From assembly GCA_015272515.1 (NCBI GenBank), contig JACYLN010000002.1:1-64000 (forward strand): a stretch of 64,000 nt of DNA. Reading direction: 5' to 3'. The translations under genes and the position numbers were made by a program. Under the pieces are notes generated by a model. The model ran no database searches. It was not told the origin of the DNA and worked only from the letters and a program-made list of their open reading frames with translations. Source of the stretch: Leptolyngbyaceae cyanobacterium C42_A2020_001. GTDB taxonomy: Bacteria > Cyanobacteriota > Cyanobacteriia > Leptolyngbyales > Leptolyngbyaceae. This document shows positions 2,767-31,553 of the stretch, one piece after another. Numbering within the stretch: the stretch's first letter is position 1; the number at the start of each line of letters is the position of its first letter.

Positions 2767-4722
2767 CTACCCATTACCCATCCCCTCTCCCCTCTCTTTC
2801 TCGCGCACCACCCGATACACATCCACTGCATGATGTCTGCCTTTCAGCATCAGCCAGCCCCAGGGTTCGACTTCAAAGCGATCGCCCAGATGCACGAGGG
2901 TTTCTTTGGCGATCAGGATGCGGCACAGGTCGGGATGGCGTTCTTTTTCGTAACTTTCTAAGCGGGCCGCGATGTTGACGCTATCGCCAATCACACCGTA
3001 CTCCAGTCGATCTTTGCCGCCTAAACTGCCTGCCACAATCGGTCCGGTGAAAATGCCGACGCGCATTTTGGTGGTTGGCAACCCGCGCTTTTGCCAATCC
3101 TGGTTGAGTCTTTCCAGCTGTTTGCCCATTGCCAAAGCACACGCCACTGCCAGTTGCGCGTCTTGAGACACTTCCACGGGTGTGATCCGGTTCATGGGTA
3201 CGCCAAAAACGGCAAGCATCCCGTCACCTGTGAACTTGTTGATAATGCCTTGATTGGCAACAACTTCTTCGGTAATGGCGCTGAGATATTCATTCAGCCA
3301 TTCCAGCAGGTTTTCCGGGGGCATTTGTTCGGAAATGGTGCTGAAGTTTTGCAAATCGGTAAATAGCATGGTGGCAGTGAGGCGTTGCCCTGGCAGTTTG
3401 CCCGATTTCAGCAGGCGATCGCGGCTCCTCCACAACGCCCTGGCAATTTCAGGAGAGGTGTTTTGTCCCAGCAGTTTCATCATCATTTGTTGTTGCTGCT
3501 GTGCCTGCCGTGCCCGGTCTGCCACCATAATTCCAGCCGTGAGTAGCAAGCCCAATGCAGGGGTTGCCACGGGTACCCATCCCTGCGACAGAAAAATGGC
3601 GTAACTGCTGCCCAACAGCACTCCCACGGCAATGATGACGTATCCGCCCACTAACAGCGGATTGCGAACCAGACGCGCCAAACACGCCCCCAACAGCGCC
3701 CATCCGACAATCCAGGCGATTTCTGCCCAATCTGACCAAAACCAGAACAAGGGCTGTTGATCCAGGGTGGTGCTCAACAATTGACTGACGATTTGGGCAT
3801 GAATTTCGACTCCTGCCATTTTGGGCGTTTCTTTCTCGGTGGGGCTGAAAGGAGTGAGAAAGTCATCTTTGGCGCTGCGGGCAGTGGCCCCAATCAAAAC
3901 GATTTTGTTTTTGATCCAATTGGGGTCAAAATCGCCCGTGAGGATTTGGGTAAGGGTGAGCGATCGCGCCACATTTCGCCGCGATCGATAGTTGAGCAGC
4001 AGTTGATAGCCTGCGGCATCAATGGTTTGGTATCCGCCAGAATAACTTTCGAGGGGGATGAATTCGATTCCCTTCAGGGTGAGGTGGTCTGAGGAATTTA
4101 ATTGGGGTTTAATCCCTTGCGGTTGCAGATAAGCAACGCTGAGTTGCATGGCAAAGGAAAAGGGATAGTCGGTTTCGGCAAATAGCAGTGCCCGCCGAAT
4201 TACCCCATCCGCATCGGTGAGCACGTCGTTAAACCCTATCTGGGCTTCCGGCATTCCGGGGGGTGGGGGTGCGCCATAATCGTCGGCTTGCTTTAACCCG
4301 GTGATGGCAATGATGTTGGCAGCCTGAAGCTGTTTTCTGAGGGCTGCATTGCCTGGTTCTTGGGGCACATCCCGCAAGAGGTCTAAACCGATGACGGTGG
4401 GCTGGTGTTGCTGAAGGGTTTGCAGCAGGGTGGCAATGGTTTGATCCGATAGGGGAAAGCGTTGCTGGGTTTGAATATCTTTTTCGGTAATGGCAACAAT
4501 CAGCAGGCGCGGGTCGGGGGGATGGTCGGGGCGCGATCGCACCATCTGGTCGTAGGCAACCAGTTCTAGAGGCTGCATCCAGCCGAAGTGGCGCATTCCC
4601 AGCAATGTTCCCGATACAACCAGCGTAGTCATGCCAACCGACAGCGATACCAACGCGCCTGTAGACAAATTGGCGGTTGAACCCCAACGCTTACGCAAAC
4701 GCTGAAACAACGATGAAATCAC
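2767..4722 (-). CDS. CHASE2-domain adenylate/guanylate cyclase
   Basis: A 651-residue membrane sensor that should make cAMP. An N-terminal membrane anchor (about residues 21-45) is followed by a periplasmic CHASE2 sensory domain (about 50-330), then three hydrophobic segments (about 335-405), and a class III cyclase domain (about 450-640). The catalytic set looks complete: metal Asp in FTDLQNFS, Lys and second metal Asp in KFTGDGMLAVFG, and the transition-state Asn and Arg in GDSVNIAARLES. The Lys and Asp specificity positions favour ATP. The start is a GTG; no good ribosome binding site is seen. It lies upstream of DUF928 and downstream of the subtilase gene on the same strand. Confidence 0.93.
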   Translation of the reverse strand: MISSLFQRLRKRWGSTANLSTGALVSLSVGMTTLVVSGTLLGMRHFGWMQPLELVAYDQMVRSRPDHPPDPRLLIVAITEKDIQTQQRFPLSDQTIATLLQTLQQHQPTVIGLDLLRDVPQEPGNAALRKQLQAANIIAITGLKQADDYGAPPPPGMPEAQIGFNDVLTDADGVIRRALLFAETDYPFSFAMQLSVAYLQPQGIKPQLNSSDHLTLKGIEFIPLESYSGGYQTIDAAGYQLLLNYRSRRNVARSLTLTQILTGDFDPNWIKNKIVLIGATARSAKDDFLTPFSPTEKETPKMAGVEIHAQIVSQLLSTTLDQQPLFWFWSDWAEIAWIVGWALLGACLARLVRNPLLVGGYVIIAVGVLLGSSYAIFLSQGWVPVATPALGLLLTAGIMVADRARQAQQQQQMMMKLLGQNTSPEIARALWRSRDRLLKSGKLPGQRLTATMLFTDLQNFSTISEQMPPENLLEWLNEYLSAITEEVVANQGIINKFTGDGMLAVFGVPMNRITPVEVSQDAQLAVACALAMGKQLERLNQDWQKRGLPTTKMRVGIFTGPIVAGSLGGKDRLEYGVIGDSVNIAARLESYEKERHPDLCRILIAKETLVHLGDRFEVEPWGWLMLKGRHHAVDVYRVVREKERGEGMGNG

Positions 4723-24419: not shown

Positions 24420-25925
24420 TTAAGCCTCGATCGCCACCTCATTTACCGGATAAGCAACACACGCCAATGCATAACCTGCTTTTTCATCCATATCGCTGAG
24501 GGCTTTGGGCGAGGCATCATACCGAACTTTGCCATGATGCAAGCGAATCTTGCACGCACCACACGCCCCCACCCGGCAGGCATGACGGATGGAAATTCCT
24601 TCTTGCTCCGCCACCTCTAAAATAGAGGCGGTACCGTCGGCTGGTACACGCTGCTCCGATTTGATGAAATGGATAGCGGGCGCTGCCGTTTCCATCATAG
24701 AAACTTGCCCCGTAAACGTATCGCGCTCTGAGACAGGTTGCAAAGCCTCAACTGGAATTGAATGCATTGGTGTGGAGGGGCTACTACCAAAGCTTTCTTC
24801 CTTGTAGTTTTGCATAGAAAATTGCAGCGTTTTTAAGAGCGATCGCACACTCTGCATGAAGCTGTCCGGGCCACATACAAAAACGGCGCGATCGTGTAAA
24901 TCGGGCACTGCAAGCTGTAAAAGCACTTCGGAAATGCGTCCTGTGAAGCCCATCCAGGCTCGTCCTCGTGGCTGCTGAGTTAAGGTTACAGCTAGATGAA
25001 AGTTGGGCATTTGAGCCGACATTATTTCTAACTCTGATTGAAAAATGATGTCGTCTATGTGACGGGCGCTGTGCAAAAACACCACATCACAATCCACTAG
25101 CGTGTCTTGTATCCAACGCGACATCGACATCATCGGCGTAATACCGCTTCCGGCTGAAATTAGCAGCAATTTTGGCGGCAGATCGGGCAAGCAAGTAAAG
25201 TCACCACAGGAACCGCCTAGCAACGTGACGCGATCGCCCACTTTGAGATGATCATGCAACCAGTTAGAAACCAGACCCGTAGGCACTCCTGGCTGAGCGG
25301 GCGGACTGGCAACTCGCTTAACTGTAATGCTGAGGTAGTGAGGGCGTGTGGGCGATGAAGAAATTGAGTAAGGACGAATCACTGATTGCCCATTAATTTC
25401 AACCTGCAAATTAACAAACTGCCCGGGTGCATAGTGAAACAGTTTTTGCGGTTCTGCTACAAAATAAAATGTCTTGACATCCGAGGTTTCATTCACAATT
25501 CGGCAGCATCGACACTGCAAATCTTCGTTGTTCCACGGTTGGTTTGCCGCTGGAACCGACAAAACTGGCTCTATTGCGGACGGGGATGTGGATGCAGGTG
25601 CAACAGGAGGTGCTAAGTCTTCAACATACAGAAACGTCTCTCCCAATTGCAGCAAATCACCCAGATGCAGCAAATACTTTTGATGAGCAGGAACCGCTTC
25701 CCCGTTGATCAAGGAGCCAGAGGTGCTGCCAACATCGATGAAGTAATACATCTCATCCGCATACACTATTCGCGCATGGACCCGACTCACTTCTGGGTTA
25801 GATAAAACCAGGTGACAGGTGGTACTCCGCCCAATCATCCACTCGGTTTGGGCTGGATGGGTAGGCGCTAGTTGATGATGCTGAAAGTGTTGCTGCTCAA
25901 AATTGACTGACTTGAGGACTAACAT
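24420..25925 (-). CDS. FHA domain - ferredoxin reductase - [2Fe-2S] ferredoxin fusion
   Basis: A 501-residue cytoplasmic redox protein with three modules. The FHA domain (about residues 25-105) retains the phospho-threonine pocket: GRSTTCHLVL, EVSRVHARI and DVGSTSGSLING. After a Pro/Ala-rich linker comes a ferredoxin-reductase-type flavoprotein (about 133-365) with RPYSISSSP for FAD and ISAGSGITPMMSM plus VFVCGPDSFM for NAD(P)H. The C-terminal plant-type ferredoxin (about 410-501) has CRVGACGAC and a last Cys at residue 489, enough for one [2Fe-2S] cluster. The reductase-ferredoxin part resembles HCP reductase or vanillate-type reductases. ATG with GGAG upstream. It follows the FeS membrane gene by 48 bases. 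Electron acceptor is unknown. Confidence 0.93.
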   Translation of the reverse strand: MLVLKSVNFEQQHFQHHQLAPTHPAQTEWMIGRSTTCHLVLSNPEVSRVHARIVYADEMYYFIDVGSTSGSLINGEAVPAHQKYLLHLGDLLQLGETFLYVEDLAPPVAPASTSPSAIEPVLSVPAANQPWNNEDLQCRCCRIVNETSDVKTFYFVAEPQKLFHYAPGQFVNLQVEINGQSVIRPYSISSSPTRPHYLSITVKRVASPPAQPGVPTGLVSNWLHDHLKVGDRVTLLGGSCGDFTCLPDLPPKLLLISAGSGITPMMSMSRWIQDTLVDCDVVFLHSARHIDDIIFQSELEIMSAQMPNFHLAVTLTQQPRGRAWMGFTGRISEVLLQLAVPDLHDRAVFVCGPDSFMQSVRSLLKTLQFSMQNYKEESFGSSPSTPMHSIPVEALQPVSERDTFTGQVSMMETAAPAIHFIKSEQRVPADGTASILEVAEQEGISIRHACRVGACGACKIRLHHGKVRYDASPKALSDMDEKAGYALACVAYPVNEVAIEA

Positions 25926-25973
25926 AACGTTTAATCTCCAGATTGCAAGGAACGAAAAGAGCGAGGGAAGAAA

Positions 25974-27674
25974 TTACAGAGGAGATTTTTTGGCGGGTTT
26001 GGCAATGGTGGTTGCGAGAGTCACGGCATCATGAAGTTGAGCAGACGATGGACGATTCGTGAGCGATCGCAGCACTTGAGGGTGAGTTGCTCCAATTGCC
26101 TGAATTGTGGTGAAGTGATCAGAATCAGTGAGTTGCAAATCTTGCCGCAGTCGTTTAAAGAATTCAAAACTACCAGGGGCATCAACAGCTTGTTGAGTCA
26201 GCAAATCTAGCACAATTCCCTGATAAGTTTGCTGCCGCAATTGCTGAGAAAATCCTTGCAGTACTTTCACCAGCGTGTGAACTTCGTCGGCACTCAATTC
26301 TTCAATCGATCGCCCTCCCAACAAAGACGCATCAATTTCGAGTTTGCGGAGTTGTTTGCGGAGACTGTTTGCCATGTTCTCGCGTTCATACTGATCACGG
26401 GTGCGGCGCAAGGTGCGATACAGCCATACGGAACCAACTAAAACAATCAGAGCATTGAATCCCAGCAAGGGGTAGTAGGGTAAGCGATTGAGAGAAGGGC
26501 GGGCACCGTAGGAGAAGAACGTCCAAAATGACGCTGCGGTAAACAGGGTAAAGGTGATGTGCTGTGCCTGTTCTACTGATACAATGTTGCCGCGACGCGA
26601 CAAATATTGCCGACAAAGTTTTTCCAGAATTAAACCGAGTGCAAAGGTGATGGCAATTAAAACGCCAAAGGTGATGAATACCGCGATCGCTTTGGGAATT
26701 GGAATCGGGTGACCGTATAGATAAAAACCCGTGTCCCAAGCTCGTGCAACTTGATCTTCTTCGTGAGTCCAGGCACCTGTGAAGTAATAATCCCAATTAC
26801 CAGCATAGAGGAAATAGTACAGATAAAAGGCAATTACCATCCCTAAATAGCCATACTGCACCAGTCTTCGTCCTGGTCTTCGCAGTTCTGCCCAGTAATT
26901 TTTCTCGGCATCAATATCAAAACAGGGAGCTTTACAACTCACACAAGCGCTTTGTTCTTGCCCGGTTTTGGCATCCACAGTGCGACACATAGATTGAGTA
27001 ATTGCAGGCTGTTGAGCATGATGATTTTGGCTACCGAGGAGCGATCGCGGTCCGGTGTACACCAGTTGCACGGGTGCCATTGGGCAAAAATAATGACACC
27101 AGCTTTTCCCTGCGTACAGGTAGCCCACCATTACAGCACACAGAATTGTGCCAATTAAAAAAATACCAAGTGAGATGCGATCGGAGTTAATAAATAAAAT
27201 GCGAATGCCTAACCCCAGCACAAACAACCCAAATTGAAAATATAGATGATTGCGCCCCAGCCAAGAATTCTCACCAATTACAACCAACTCCCAACGCATC
27301 TCACCTGTAACAGGATCAATGGTTTTACGTCGGCGTTGAATTCCGAGGGCGCGGGGAATTTGGGACAGGAACGAAAGGGGACAAATCCGCCGCCAAAACT
27401 CATGTCCTAAAACCAACAGAATAAAGATTCCGGCAGGAACAATCATTGCCCACCACATCAAGGCACTCATTGAGAAGGGAGTTTGCGGTAAACAATACTC
27501 TCGAATTTTGATGCAACGCTCTGGGTCGATGCGGAAGGGGCTAGTTGGGTGGTCTGGTTGGGTAAACAGGGGAGTAATGGGATCGTAGAAGAGTGAGGCA
27601 ATCAGAATTAGCCAACCGATTACCAACAGCCAACGTACACGGTGCATAGTTTTCTCTGAAACATTATTCAGCAT
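25974..27674 (-). CDS. NapH/CcoG-like membrane [4Fe-4S] protein
   Basis: A 566-residue polytopic membrane protein with features of the NapH/RdxA-CcoG polyferredoxin group. Membrane segments alternate with Cys motifs RRICPLSFLSQ and WCHYFCPMAPVQ, the repeated CP signature of this group. A later loop contains one ferredoxin-like cluster, SMCRTV followed by ACVSCKAPCFDID, which can ligate a single [4Fe-4S]. Further membrane segments follow (about residues 265-420). A soluble helical C-terminal domain (about 430-566) is unassigned. ATG with GAGGA seven bases upstream. It is placed between the kinase (43 bases) and the FHA-reductase (48 bases), which suggests it passes electrons across or within the membrane. 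Confidence 0.87.
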   Translation of the reverse strand: MLNNVSEKTMHRVRWLLVIGWLILIASLFYDPITPLFTQPDHPTSPFRIDPERCIKIREYCLPQTPFSMSALMWWAMIVPAGIFILLVLGHEFWRRICPLSFLSQIPRALGIQRRRKTIDPVTGEMRWELVVIGENSWLGRNHLYFQFGLFVLGLGIRILFINSDRISLGIFLIGTILCAVMVGYLYAGKSWCHYFCPMAPVQLVYTGPRSLLGSQNHHAQQPAITQSMCRTVDAKTGQEQSACVSCKAPCFDIDAEKNYWAELRRPGRRLVQYGYLGMVIAFYLYYFLYAGNWDYYFTGAWTHEEDQVARAWDTGFYLYGHPIPIPKAIAVFITFGVLIAITFALGLILEKLCRQYLSRRGNIVSVEQAQHITFTLFTAASFWTFFSYGARPSLNRLPYYPLLGFNALIVLVGSVWLYRTLRRTRDQYERENMANSLRKQLRKLEIDASLLGGRSIEELSADEVHTLVKVLQGFSQQLRQQTYQGIVLDLLTQQAVDAPGSFEFFKRLRQDLQLTDSDHFTTIQAIGATHPQVLRSLTNRPSSAQLHDAVTLATTIAKPAKKSPL

Positions 27675-27717
27675 TGGTGCATCCTCGTTTGTTGCAATAT
27701 ATTTTCAGGTGATGTTT

Positions 27718-29601
27718 CTACAGTTTGGTCGTGCTTACCTGCCAAAGATGTAACCGTCGATCAGTATCCCAACTTGCCAGATAGCGATGGTCAGGACTGA
27801 GTGCTGCATTTCTATTTCGGTGTGAGCCGTTGTTATTTTTTGCTACCAGTTTTCCGGTGTCACGAGTCCAGATCCGAATGCTGCCATTTTCGTGAACGGT
27901 AATGATGTAGCGATCGCTAAATGAAGTCGCGATTGGATTTGCTGAGTCTTTTGGCAACATTTCCATCAATTCTTCTCGTTTAAGATCCCACATCAATCCG
28001 CGATCTTTGCCAAAGCTAATGAGCCGCTGTTGGTTGGTTACCTGTAAACCCACGATTGCATCGGTATGCCCGGCAAAGGTGCGGTGAAGTGCTCCAGTCC
28101 GTAAATCCCAAACCTGGAGTTGGCGATCGCTAGTAGCACTAATCAGGCTATTGGGGATTGAGCCGTAACTCACTGCGGTAATTTCTGTTTTTGGCAGTTG
28201 GAGGGTTTGCAGCAATACTCCAGTTTTCAGATCCCATCGCCGCAGCATTCCACCTTTACAGCCTGTAATCAATGTTTGGCCGTCGGGATGGATCGCGATC
28301 GAGGTTACGGGCTTCTGGTGTCCTCTAAACACCTGTAGAAACTGACCTGACGAAGTATCCCAAAGTCGCACAACGCCATCTGCCCCACCGCTCACTAACA
28401 GTTTGCTATCTTGACTAATTGCAAGGCTGGTAACGGAGGTGTGCCCAGATATTGACCTGAGCATAGAGCCAGTAGCGAGTGACCATAACCGCAGTACATG
28501 GTCATTCCCCGCTGTAATCAACATTTGGTTGTTAGGCGTGATCAGCATTTGTTCAACATCAGCCTGAATTGGCATATCACGTAGTTTTTTGAGATGCACA
28601 TCCGACTGCTGAAATAAGTGTTCAATCTGACTCAGGACATGGGGGGATTGGCGATTGCGCGCATACACATATTGCCCGCCAACCATGCCAAGCACCAGTA
28701 AAGCGGTGACTGGTGCAACCATCTTTTTAACTGATCGCTGCCAACAGATTGCAGGTTGACGAAAATGCCCGACTCCGGGAATTGCTTGAATGTCTGCTAA
28801 TGCCTCAGCCGGATGTTGATAGCGATCGCTGCACTTAATTCGCACTAGCCGATCTAGCACCTCTACCAATCTGGGATCAACACAGTGTTCTGGCAAAAAA
28901 CTATGCCAATCTAATTCGCCTGAAATCACGTCAGGCTTAAACTGCTTGGGATGAACTTTCGTGAGGAGATGAATCACTAAAATTCCCAGGGCATACAAGT
29001 CACTATTGAGGCGAGACATGCCCAAATGCTGCTCATCGGGCATATACCCAGGGGTGCCAATTGCCAACGATGCGGTAGTGGGTAAAGCACTTGGCTCAGG
29101 ATTAGAGACCAGGCACGCTGCCCCAAAATCAATTAAGACAAACTTGCCATCTCGTCGCCGAATCAGGTTACTGGGTTTAATATCACGGTGAATAATCCCG
29201 TAGGAATGAATATGCTCCAAAATAGTCAAGACATCTTTTAGAAGCGCGATCGCCACTTTATAAGACAAGCGTTGATCTGTTTGTAACCAACGACTTAAAC
29301 TTTCCCCTTCAACATACTCTTGCACGAGATAGATTTCGTCATGCTCATGGCAGTATGCGTACAACGTAGGAATTTGAGAGTGATGTCGCCCAACCTGCTC
29401 TAGTAGACGAGCTTCATTATCAAACAATTGCTGAGCCGTCTCCAACGAAATCTTATTTCTTGAAGACAGCTTCAGGTATTTCACAACACACAACGGATGG
29501 TGAGGAAGATATTTGTCGCGAGCCAGATAGGTTTTGCTAAACCCACCTGCTCCCAACTCTTCCAAGATGAGATAGCGTCCAGTTAATAGTTTCCCAATCA
29601 T
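27718..29601 (-). CDS. Ser/Thr protein kinase with C-terminal WD40 propeller
   Basis: A 627-residue Hanks-type kinase. The glycine loop GAGGFSKTYLA, ATP Lys41 in CVVKYL, the catalytic loop HRDIKPSN, the DFG in LIDFGAA and the GTPGYMPDEQ activation segment are present, so it should be active. A single membrane span (about residues 295-315, VAPVTALLVLGMVGGQYVYA) separates the cytosolic kinase from a WD40 domain with seven recognisable repeats (for example LRLWSLATG, VRLWDTSSG, LQVWDLRTG), enough for one closed propeller. The ATG at 29601 gives the typical N-terminus MIGKLLTGRY; a GTG at 29658 has no ribosome binding site. It is the first gene of the unit with the FeS membrane protein and FHA-reductase. 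Confidence 0.94.
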   Translation of the reverse strand: MIGKLLTGRYLILEELGAGGFSKTYLARDKYLPHHPLCVVKYLKLSSRNKISLETAQQLFDNEARLLEQVGRHHSQIPTLYAYCHEHDEIYLVQEYVEGESLSRWLQTDQRLSYKVAIALLKDVLTILEHIHSYGIIHRDIKPSNLIRRRDGKFVLIDFGAACLVSNPEPSALPTTASLAIGTPGYMPDEQHLGMSRLNSDLYALGILVIHLLTKVHPKQFKPDVISGELDWHSFLPEHCVDPRLVEVLDRLVRIKCSDRYQHPAEALADIQAIPGVGHFRQPAICWQRSVKKMVAPVTALLVLGMVGGQYVYARNRQSPHVLSQIEHLFQQSDVHLKKLRDMPIQADVEQMLITPNNQMLITAGNDHVLRLWSLATGSMLRSISGHTSVTSLAISQDSKLLVSGGADGVVRLWDTSSGQFLQVFRGHQKPVTSIAIHPDGQTLITGCKGGMLRRWDLKTGVLLQTLQLPKTEITAVSYGSIPNSLISATSDRQLQVWDLRTGALHRTFAGHTDAIVGLQVTNQQRLISFGKDRGLMWDLKREELMEMLPKDSANPIATSFSDRYIITVHENGSIRIWTRDTGKLVAKNNNGSHRNRNAALSPDHRYLASWDTDRRLHLWQVSTTKL

Positions 29602-30017
29602 TCCAATCCAACCTTCTGCACAGCGATAATTCGGTTCATTCACACTGAGGATGAACACTCTGATGATGCTGAGTGTTCAGTTCCTCTAAAGCTTGATGAT
29701 GAGTGCAGATGAATCTATACCAGCAACTACCAATGGCACAGTGTTGCTTAAATAAGACTCATCCTTATACAAAACAGTCGCAATGTTGCGAAACTCCTCC
29801 ACCTGGGGCAGCACTTCTGCAATTCATATCCAAGCACTGCTAAGGCATTAAACTGAAGCGGTAGATGAACGATGCCTAATTCTAATGCGATCAAAGAACA
29901 ATTCAACAGGAAGCCAACAGTAGGAATGATCGCACGTTCTTGTAAGATTATAGTTGCCAGGTTGGTTGCTGCCCACCCTTTATGACAGAAATAGCAGAAA
30001 TTCGCCAATCAAGTTTT

Positions 30018-30230: not shown

Positions 30231-31553
30231 GTGGCATCGCTTGCTTTAGTTCTGCAATACTCAACGCCATCTGCAATGACGGATCCACTGGAAATGAATT
30301 CAATATTCTGGAATGTTTCTGAAGGTCAATCTAGCTCACTACTCAGTTTTCTGGAGCAATCGCTCAAACCATTAGTAGTTTATGATGCTCAAGGCAAAAC
30401 GATATATGCTAGCCAGAGTTTGTTAGAGCTATTGCAAACAGAGCTTCAATCCATTCATTTTTTTGATTATTTTTCCGGCAACTCCATGCCTGTAAATGTT
30501 TTAAGAGCATACTGGAATCGTGCTTTACAGGGAGAACGTCTTCAGTTTCTTACAACTATCAAAGGTGATTTAGGGGAAATTGAGTGTTCTCTGGAGTTTG
30601 AGCCAGATGTCAATTTGATGTTTGTATTAGTTACTAAAATTGCTGCCGAGCAGCCTGTTCAAGCCTTGATCAGTGCCCATGAACGAGCGATCGCAGCTTT
30701 AATTAAAACAGAGGAGAGATGGAAAACCTTTGTTTCTAATAGTCCTTATTTATTCATTCAAACCAGCAGCACCGGGCAGATTGTTTACACAAACGCGATC
30801 GCACGACAAATTCTCGGTTACCGGGAAGAAGAATTAATGGGTCGCCACATTACTGAGTTAGTCCATCCCAAACAATTTAGTGACTTTGAGCTAATTTTTC
30901 AGCGGTGGAGCAGTACATTTCAAACCCAACCGCTAGGAATTGAATGCTGGTGGAGAGCAAAGTCTGGACAGTGGCTCGCACTCTACGCGAAAGGGCAGCA
31001 TTTCCCAACCGCTCTAGACCTGGATGGAGTTGCAATTAGTGGCTACAACATCACAGAGCGCAAACGTCTGGAATACAAACTTAGAACCAGTGAGGAGCGA
31101 TTTCAATCCTTGCTGATGACAATCCCTGGTGCAGTATTTTATTGCGATTTATTTTACACAATGAAATTTGCCAGCGATGGCATGGAGGCAATTACCGGAT
31201 ATAACCCATCCGTGTTCATCAATAATCACCTTCGATCCTATCTCAGCATTATTCATCAAGATGATATTCCACTCATTCGAGACTCACTGACTCAATCCGT
31301 CTCCGGACATGCTCATTCAATGGAGTACCGCATCATTCATGCGGATGGACAAATTCGATGGGTATCAGAACGGAAGCAAGGAGTGTTTGATCGGAATGGA
31401 AATTTGCTCTGGCTCTGCGGCATTTTAATGGATATTAGTAACCTCAAGCACAGTGAAGTTGAACACAAGCTAACCGCAGAAAAATTACGGCTCAGTGAAG
31501 CAATTAATCGTAAAATCATCAAAATCCGTTCCGATCTGATGCAATTACGATAA
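30231..31553 (+). CDS. Triple-PAS sensor protein without output domain
   Basis: A 440-residue signalling protein with three PAS-type segments: a degenerate first one (about residues 38-125), a second beginning near ERWKTFVSNSPYLFIQ (about 160-285, with YREEELMGRHITELVHP) and a third from SEERFQSLLMTIPGAVFY (about 290-410, PAC end WVSERKQGVFDRNGNLLWLCGILMDIS). A short coiled coil follows and the protein ends with no histidine kinase, GGDEF or other effector. Start choice is open: GTG at 30231 or ATG at 30276; neither has a clear ribosome binding site. It is divergent from the kinase. It may act through a partner or be a shortened histidine kinase. Confidence 0.82.
   Translation: MASLALVLQYSTPSAMTDPLEMNSIFWNVSEGQSSSLLSFLEQSLKPLVVYDAQGKTIYASQSLLELLQTELQSIHFFDYFSGNSMPVNVLRAYWNRALQGERLQFLTTIKGDLGEIECSLEFEPDVNLMFVLVTKIAAEQPVQALISAHERAIAALIKTEERWKTFVSNSPYLFIQTSSTGQIVYTNAIARQILGYREEELMGRHITELVHPKQFSDFELIFQRWSSTFQTQPLGIECWWRAKSGQWLALYAKGQHFPTALDLDGVAISGYNITERKRLEYKLRTSEERFQSLLMTIPGAVFYCDLFYTMKFASDGMEAITGYNPSVFINNHLRSYLSIIHQDDIPLIRDSLTQSVSGHAHSMEYRIIHADGQIRWVSERKQGVFDRNGNLLWLCGILMDISNLKHSEVEHKLTAEKLRLSEAINRKIIKIRSDLMQLR

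Follow-up and report, generated by a model that had tools for sequence, protein, structure and literature searches.

We found that three adjacent genes of a Leptolyngbyaceae cyanobacterium encode a WD40 Ser/Thr kinase (KIN), a membrane Fe-S protein of a family that curated libraries do not name (MEM) and a fusion of FHA, reductase and ferredoxin domains (FHAred), and comparison with related loci makes it probable that together they form a switchable membrane system in which phosphorylation gates electron delivery to MEM. In the mechanism that we propose, a receptor-like Ser/Thr kinase would phosphorylate a threonine in the C-terminal tail of MEM, which is flexible, and the FHA domain of FHAred would bind this phospho-Thr and so recruit the NAD(P)H-FAD-[2Fe-2S] protein to the membrane partner. 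From NAD(P)H, electrons would then travel by way of FAD and the [2Fe-2S] cluster to the Fe-S clusters of MEM and on to an acceptor located at the membrane or beyond it. If this is true, bacterial Ser/Thr phosphorylation gates the docking of a redox partner at an explicit docking site, and the MEM family gains a function. Text searches of the open-access literature returned no description of MEM or of an FHA-ferredoxin or kinase-FHA-ferredoxin system.

Architecture of the three proteins

As the original prediction had stated, the window (the whole stretch of 64,000 nucleotides that was analysed) carries three intact open reading frames on the minus strand, separated by gaps of 43 and 48 bases: KIN (27718-29601), MEM (25974-27674) and FHAred (24420-25925). 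A promoter and terminator scan of the locus gave signal no higher than in shuffled sequences. We also considered a defence system and dropped this reading because the PADLOC matches of the kinase were generic kinase-domain matches and MEM and FHAred had none. Divergent from KIN lies a gene for a PAS-domain protein (30231-31553, plus strand) whose family is retained beside the trio in six of eight relatives; the two genes may share a control region. Elsewhere in the window, positions 2767-4722 (minus strand) encode a protein with CHASE2 and adenylate/guanylate cyclase domains.

KIN was predicted to be an intact WD40 Ser/Thr kinase, and this was borne out by Pfam matches to Pkinase (E = 3e-36) and to WD40, the latter as a C-terminal propeller, and by the presence of all the catalytic motifs of a Hanks-type kinase (glycine loop, VVK lysine, HRD and DFG). 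We prefer the ATG at 29601 as its start over a longer frame that opens at a GTG at 29658, because the kinases of relatives start at the same MIG.LLTGRYL. Hydropathy predicts a transmembrane segment at about 28666-28722, barely over threshold, and the propeller may therefore be extracytoplasmic. We found no evidence that the propeller steers docking, as had been proposed.

FHAred also proved to be the fusion that had been claimed. It matched the Pfam models FHA (25641-25841), FAD_binding_6 and NAD_binding_1 (together 24783-25508) and Fer2 (24423-24695) above their cut-offs, all on the minus strand, with 64.3 bits for FHA against a cut-off of 20.7. The phospho-Thr pocket is intact: G32, R33, S47, R48, H50, S67, G70, S71 and N74 do not vary among seven divergent homologues, and the ferredoxin domain has its four cysteines. 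FHAred stayed below the NCBIfam cut-offs for GbcB (NF058606; 335.6 of 500 bits) and NqrF (TIGR01941; 89.3 of 295 bits); by sequence, it is a GbcB/NqrF-type NAD(P)H-FAD-[2Fe-2S] chain. The pocket is kept in nearly all FHAreds that adjoin a MEM gene (L155, L099 and a few more have one change each) and is clearly lost only in three that lie apart from MEM (L103:8381-10210, L157:7386-9212 and L158:8328-10208), which have long basic linkers; other unlinked FHAreds retain it. In the methanotroph Crenothrix sp. D3 (L128:4054-9098), an FHA-reductase-ferredoxin gene lies by a PNPOx-globin fusion and two further reductases. MEM was not found in this genome, which was therefore left out of the counts.

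MEM is a multi-transmembrane protein by its modelled helices, and no Pfam model exceeded its cut-off on it. Fer4_5 gave 18.1 bits for the window protein and 27.1 bits for the relative L047, against a cut-off of 22. A search of the sequence against the PDB gave no credible match, a profile search returned only chance matches of coiled-coil type, and a fold search with a model of MEM (pLDDT 75, pTM 0.75) gave no PDB match. An alignment of 31 MEMs has seven invariant cysteines (98, 193, 197, 230, 244, 247 and 251; 26922-27383, minus strand), which would face the cytosol by our reading of the model helices. It also has two nearly invariant cysteines, C54 and C61, in a loop predicted to lie outside, and a single invariant histidine, H91. 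The original prediction had called MEM NapH/CcoG-like with all cluster cysteines present. Compared by profile, MEM does match E. coli NapH and YccM weakly around the CX3CP regions, but only C193/C197 is a complete motif and the first is reduced to C98. The likeness is thus a lead rather than a membership, and the claim of complete cysteines stands for the ferredoxin but not for the first CX3CP of MEM.

The window MEM is of the short type. Long MEMs have additional domains at the C-terminus: FHA plus cNMP-binding, cNMP-binding only, a pair of EF-hands or a ferredoxin. EF-hand fusions (L046:847-3057, L047:8149-10299 and L164:8081-10363) parallel Ca-regulated NOX5. The window genome has a second MEM (G000:C43; L039:8172-11480, plus strand), whose C-terminal part has FHA and cNMP-binding domains and whose gene diverges from that of an adenylate/guanylate cyclase bearing a Tll0287-like sensor (L039:6377-7966, minus strand); this MEM is possibly a cyclic-nucleotide-gated version. 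Directly upstream of a cNMP-type MEM, L048:6843-7979 holds genes for a ParA-like ATPase and for a protein of 115 aa that no Pfam model matches, and genes of similar size occupy the matching place in L049:9978-11116. No recurrent redox partner was found in MEM-only neighbourhoods, which hold transporters, cyclases and singletons.

Conservation of the pair and recurrence of kinases

Among 386 sampled cyanobacteria, MEM was present in 51 and FHAred in 15, and all 15 genomes with FHAred also held MEM (hypergeometric P = 9e-15, relatedness ignored). Scanning named genomes, we obtained 41 FHAred loci from cyanobacteria. The closest eight relatives of the window FHAred (L074-L081) all keep the order kinase-MEM-FHAred on one strand, mostly with 34-105 bp between kinase and MEM, although the kinase frame of L080 is split. 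The trio thus has a conserved neighbourhood rather than lying scattered. The predicted co-occurrence holds for these relatives, but most loci beyond them retain MEM-FHAred and lack the WD40 kinase; the pair, with or without a kinase, is the more widely conserved unit, and we examined 43 such loci.

Running a kinase profile over every neighbour, we found that 23 of the 43 pair loci and 0 of 25 MEM-only loci have a kinase no more than 5.7 kb away. Fisher's test, run with 22, gave P of about 5e-6, a value that overstates independence since the loci are related, and some of the kinases counted lie on the opposite strand, several kb away. Ten genomes among those with pair loci have about one kinase per 143 kb, so that roughly 8-9% of loci would be expected to have one nearby by chance. 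The kinases directly adjacent on the same strand show three architectures: WD40 (upstream in the trio clade, downstream in L086), CHASE2 (L091 and L094) and Peripla_BP_6 (L088). On architecture these are receptor-like kinases, and simple hydropathy found a suitable transmembrane segment in most, though not all, of them. In the FHAred tree, the loci with a WD40 kinase form one clade (100/100) and those with a CHASE2 kinase another (100/98), and L086 and L088 fall outside both. To judge by the tree, the WD40 kinase is the choice of one clade and other kinases substitute for it elsewhere.

These data bear on whether the kinase is a mere neighbour, with MEM and FHAred cooperating and the FHA domain answering unrelated kinases or serving a structural role. 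The confinement of the WD40 kinase to one clade, the 15 to 65 kinases in each genome examined for density and the 20 of 43 pair loci that have no close kinase are in keeping with such a reading. We nevertheless consider it unlikely, given the trio order kept in 8/8 nearest relatives and the recurrence of several kinase architectures by the pair and none at MEM-only loci.

A candidate docking site in the MEM tail

FHA recognition prefers threonine over serine. The tails of short MEMs beside FHAred change fast and carry a recurrent Thr-hydrophobic-hydrophobic-basic motif, represented in the window by TIAK (residues 556-559; 25998-26009, minus strand), a candidate phospho-Thr docking site in a low-confidence part of the model, and elsewhere by TIAR, TILR, TIIR and TVVR. 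The strict motif occurred 31 times in 20 of the 29 short-MEM tails beside FHAred, compared with a mean of 1.6 in shuffled tails. Because the motif was defined post hoc, after the tails had been inspected, the fairer tests are the contrast with serine and the set lacking FHAred. After removal of near-duplicates, 26 matches started with Thr and 0 with Ser, at similar abundance of the two residues, as FHA recognition predicts; outside the trio clade the motif gave 13 matches in 10 of 14 tails, with 0.8 expected. Eight short MEM entries without FHAred had none, although some of their tails are very short. Of the 22 non-redundant tails, 21 carried a looser pattern, T-x-hydrophobic-[RK], with 35 instances for Thr and 2 for Ser.

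Where MEM has its own FHA domain, the arrangement looks as if it were reversed: directly after its FHA domain, FHAred carries T-hydrophobic-hydrophobic-[DE] at nine of ten loci (mostly one clade, with two loci from one genome), as if docking were reciprocal. Phospho-Thr docking of FHAred to the MEM tail is, on this comparative evidence, a well supported prediction. Of the original docking proposal, the conserved neighbourhood stands, and its FHA/phospho-Thr logic is joined by an independent prediction, the threonine motifs of the MEM tail; the WD40 kinase, by contrast, belongs to one clade alone.

Proposed electron path and possible acceptors

In L168 (genome G121), MEM and a ferredoxin domain are naturally fused, which supports the view that the [2Fe-2S] domain of FHAred would be the electron donor of MEM. 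This fusion lacks the strict tail motif, as expected if fusion replaces docking. With one invariant histidine and no haem ligands, MEM offers no evident path across the membrane, which counts against the proposal. The gated electron flow proposed originally gains support for a ferredoxin-to-MEM link; as to the acceptor, which had not been named, conserved neighbours in relatives point to chemistry of oxygen and reactive oxygen species (ROS).

The evidence for this comes from the neighbours of the pair. In Nostocales, a Cu/Zn superoxide dismutase (SOD) with an apparent lipoprotein signal is encoded downstream of FHAred and is the sole Cu/Zn SOD of those genomes; overall, a Cu/Zn SOD adjoins the pair in five of eight checked genomes that have one. 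A VCPO-type vanadium haloperoxidase adjoins the pair in all six checked pair genomes that have one; these proteins have PDB relatives and, by pattern, the vanadate-site residues, and a stop interrupts the G360 copy. Another family, of bromoperoxidase type (PDB match of L175, E = 3e-93), is encoded upstream of MEM in L175 and about 120 bp upstream of it in L095 and L097. LEGE 06105 has two pair loci (L097 and L102) with a different haloperoxidase family at each. Such cases are scattered over several places on the FHAred tree. Most haloperoxidases of the phylum lie away from MEM, and the association is therefore with MEM-FHAred pairs and not with MEM generally. Export is clear only for the Cu/Zn SOD and the Moorena haloperoxidases; those of L095 and L102 have no obvious signal peptide.

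SOD and haloperoxidases act on superoxide or H2O2, and vanadium haloperoxidases need peroxide. These neighbours, together with the EF-hand MEMs, therefore suggest an output like that of NADPH oxidases (NOX): O2 would be the most likely acceptor, and the superoxide or H2O2 formed would in relatives be met by the neighbouring SOD or used by the haloperoxidases. We infer that the window version shares this output. We hold the assignment of superoxide/H2O2 as the output only tentatively, because no SOD or haloperoxidase lies beside the trio in its clade, window included, MEM has no haem ligands and export is rarely clear.

MEM might instead feed the quinone pool, so that it and FHAred would act as an NAD(P)H:plastoquinone oxidoreductase under phospho-control, a functional parallel to NQR. 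In favour are the sequence likeness of the reductase to NqrF, the cytosolic placement of the MEM Fe-S clusters in the predicted topology and the absence of haem ligands; yet no NqrB/D/E-like subunit was seen beside the pair, and the SOD and haloperoxidase neighbours would be left unaccounted for, which makes this rather doubtful. It is improbable that MEM reduces metals and that FHAred serves it as a dedicated NAD(P)H donor. Such a role would fit the weak profile similarity to NapH and YccM, the Cu/Zn SOD beside the pair in Nostocales and the precedent of the cupric reductase CcoG, which reduces Cu(II) by two [4Fe-4S] clusters and whose donor is not known (PMC7558416). However, the first CX3CP of MEM is incomplete, no recurring copper genes were seen beside the pair, and the neighbouring vanadium haloperoxidases require peroxide rather than reduced metal.

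Should the output be superoxide/H2O2, the pair would be a candidate source of regulated extracellular ROS in cyanobacteria and of peroxide for bacterial haloperoxidases. Such candidates matter because extracellular superoxide was found across surveyed phytoplankton, cyanobacteria included, and was inhibited by DPI in 14 of 16 strains (PMC12684733). In its fullest form, which is possible though the odds are against it, the system would be a haem-free Fe-S analogue of NADPH oxidases, gated by a receptor kinase, assembled through phospho-Thr and FHA, and making superoxide/H2O2 at the membrane to feed SOD and haloperoxidases. It would then be a convergent counterpart of NOX2, NOX5 and DUOX and might account for part of cyanobacterial extracellular superoxide.

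Comparison with known systems

The assembly of NOX2 is gated by phosphorylation and NOX5 is gated by EF-hands. Like these enzymes, DUOX and SpNOX, the system described here would feed a membrane protein from an NAD(P)H-FAD module; EF-hand fusions of MEM recall NOX5, and the peroxidase partner recalls DUOX. NOX/FRD membrane parts, including that of bacterial SpNOX, have four conserved histidines and two haems (PMC5676040), whereas MEM conserves H91 alone, carries Fe-S motifs instead of a two-haem ferric-reductase domain and is non-homologous; its FNR-type FAD/NAD(P)H domain is in a separate protein, FHAred, and its reduction of O2 is a prediction.

MEM resembles NapH, CcoG and YccM in its CX3CP-type Fe-S motifs after transmembrane helices and in weak profile matches, and differs from them in its single-cysteine first CX3CP, in the below-cut-off Fer4_5 score of the window protein, in having no NapG or cco genes and in bearing a C-terminal signalling tail or domains. 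FHAred, like GbcB, NqrF and BenC, joins FAD, NAD and [2Fe-2S] modules in a single chain, in the domain order of GbcB. Unlike these reductases, it has an N-terminal FHA domain, misses the GbcB cut-off and is partnered with MEM, not with a Rieske oxygenase.

PknB/PknG-GarA is a bacterial kinase-FHA switch, with a Hanks kinase and an FHA reader of phospho-Thr (PMC5448819). Our system would use the same combination, but here the reader is part of a redox enzyme, and the phospho-Thr is predicted in a membrane electron-transfer protein.
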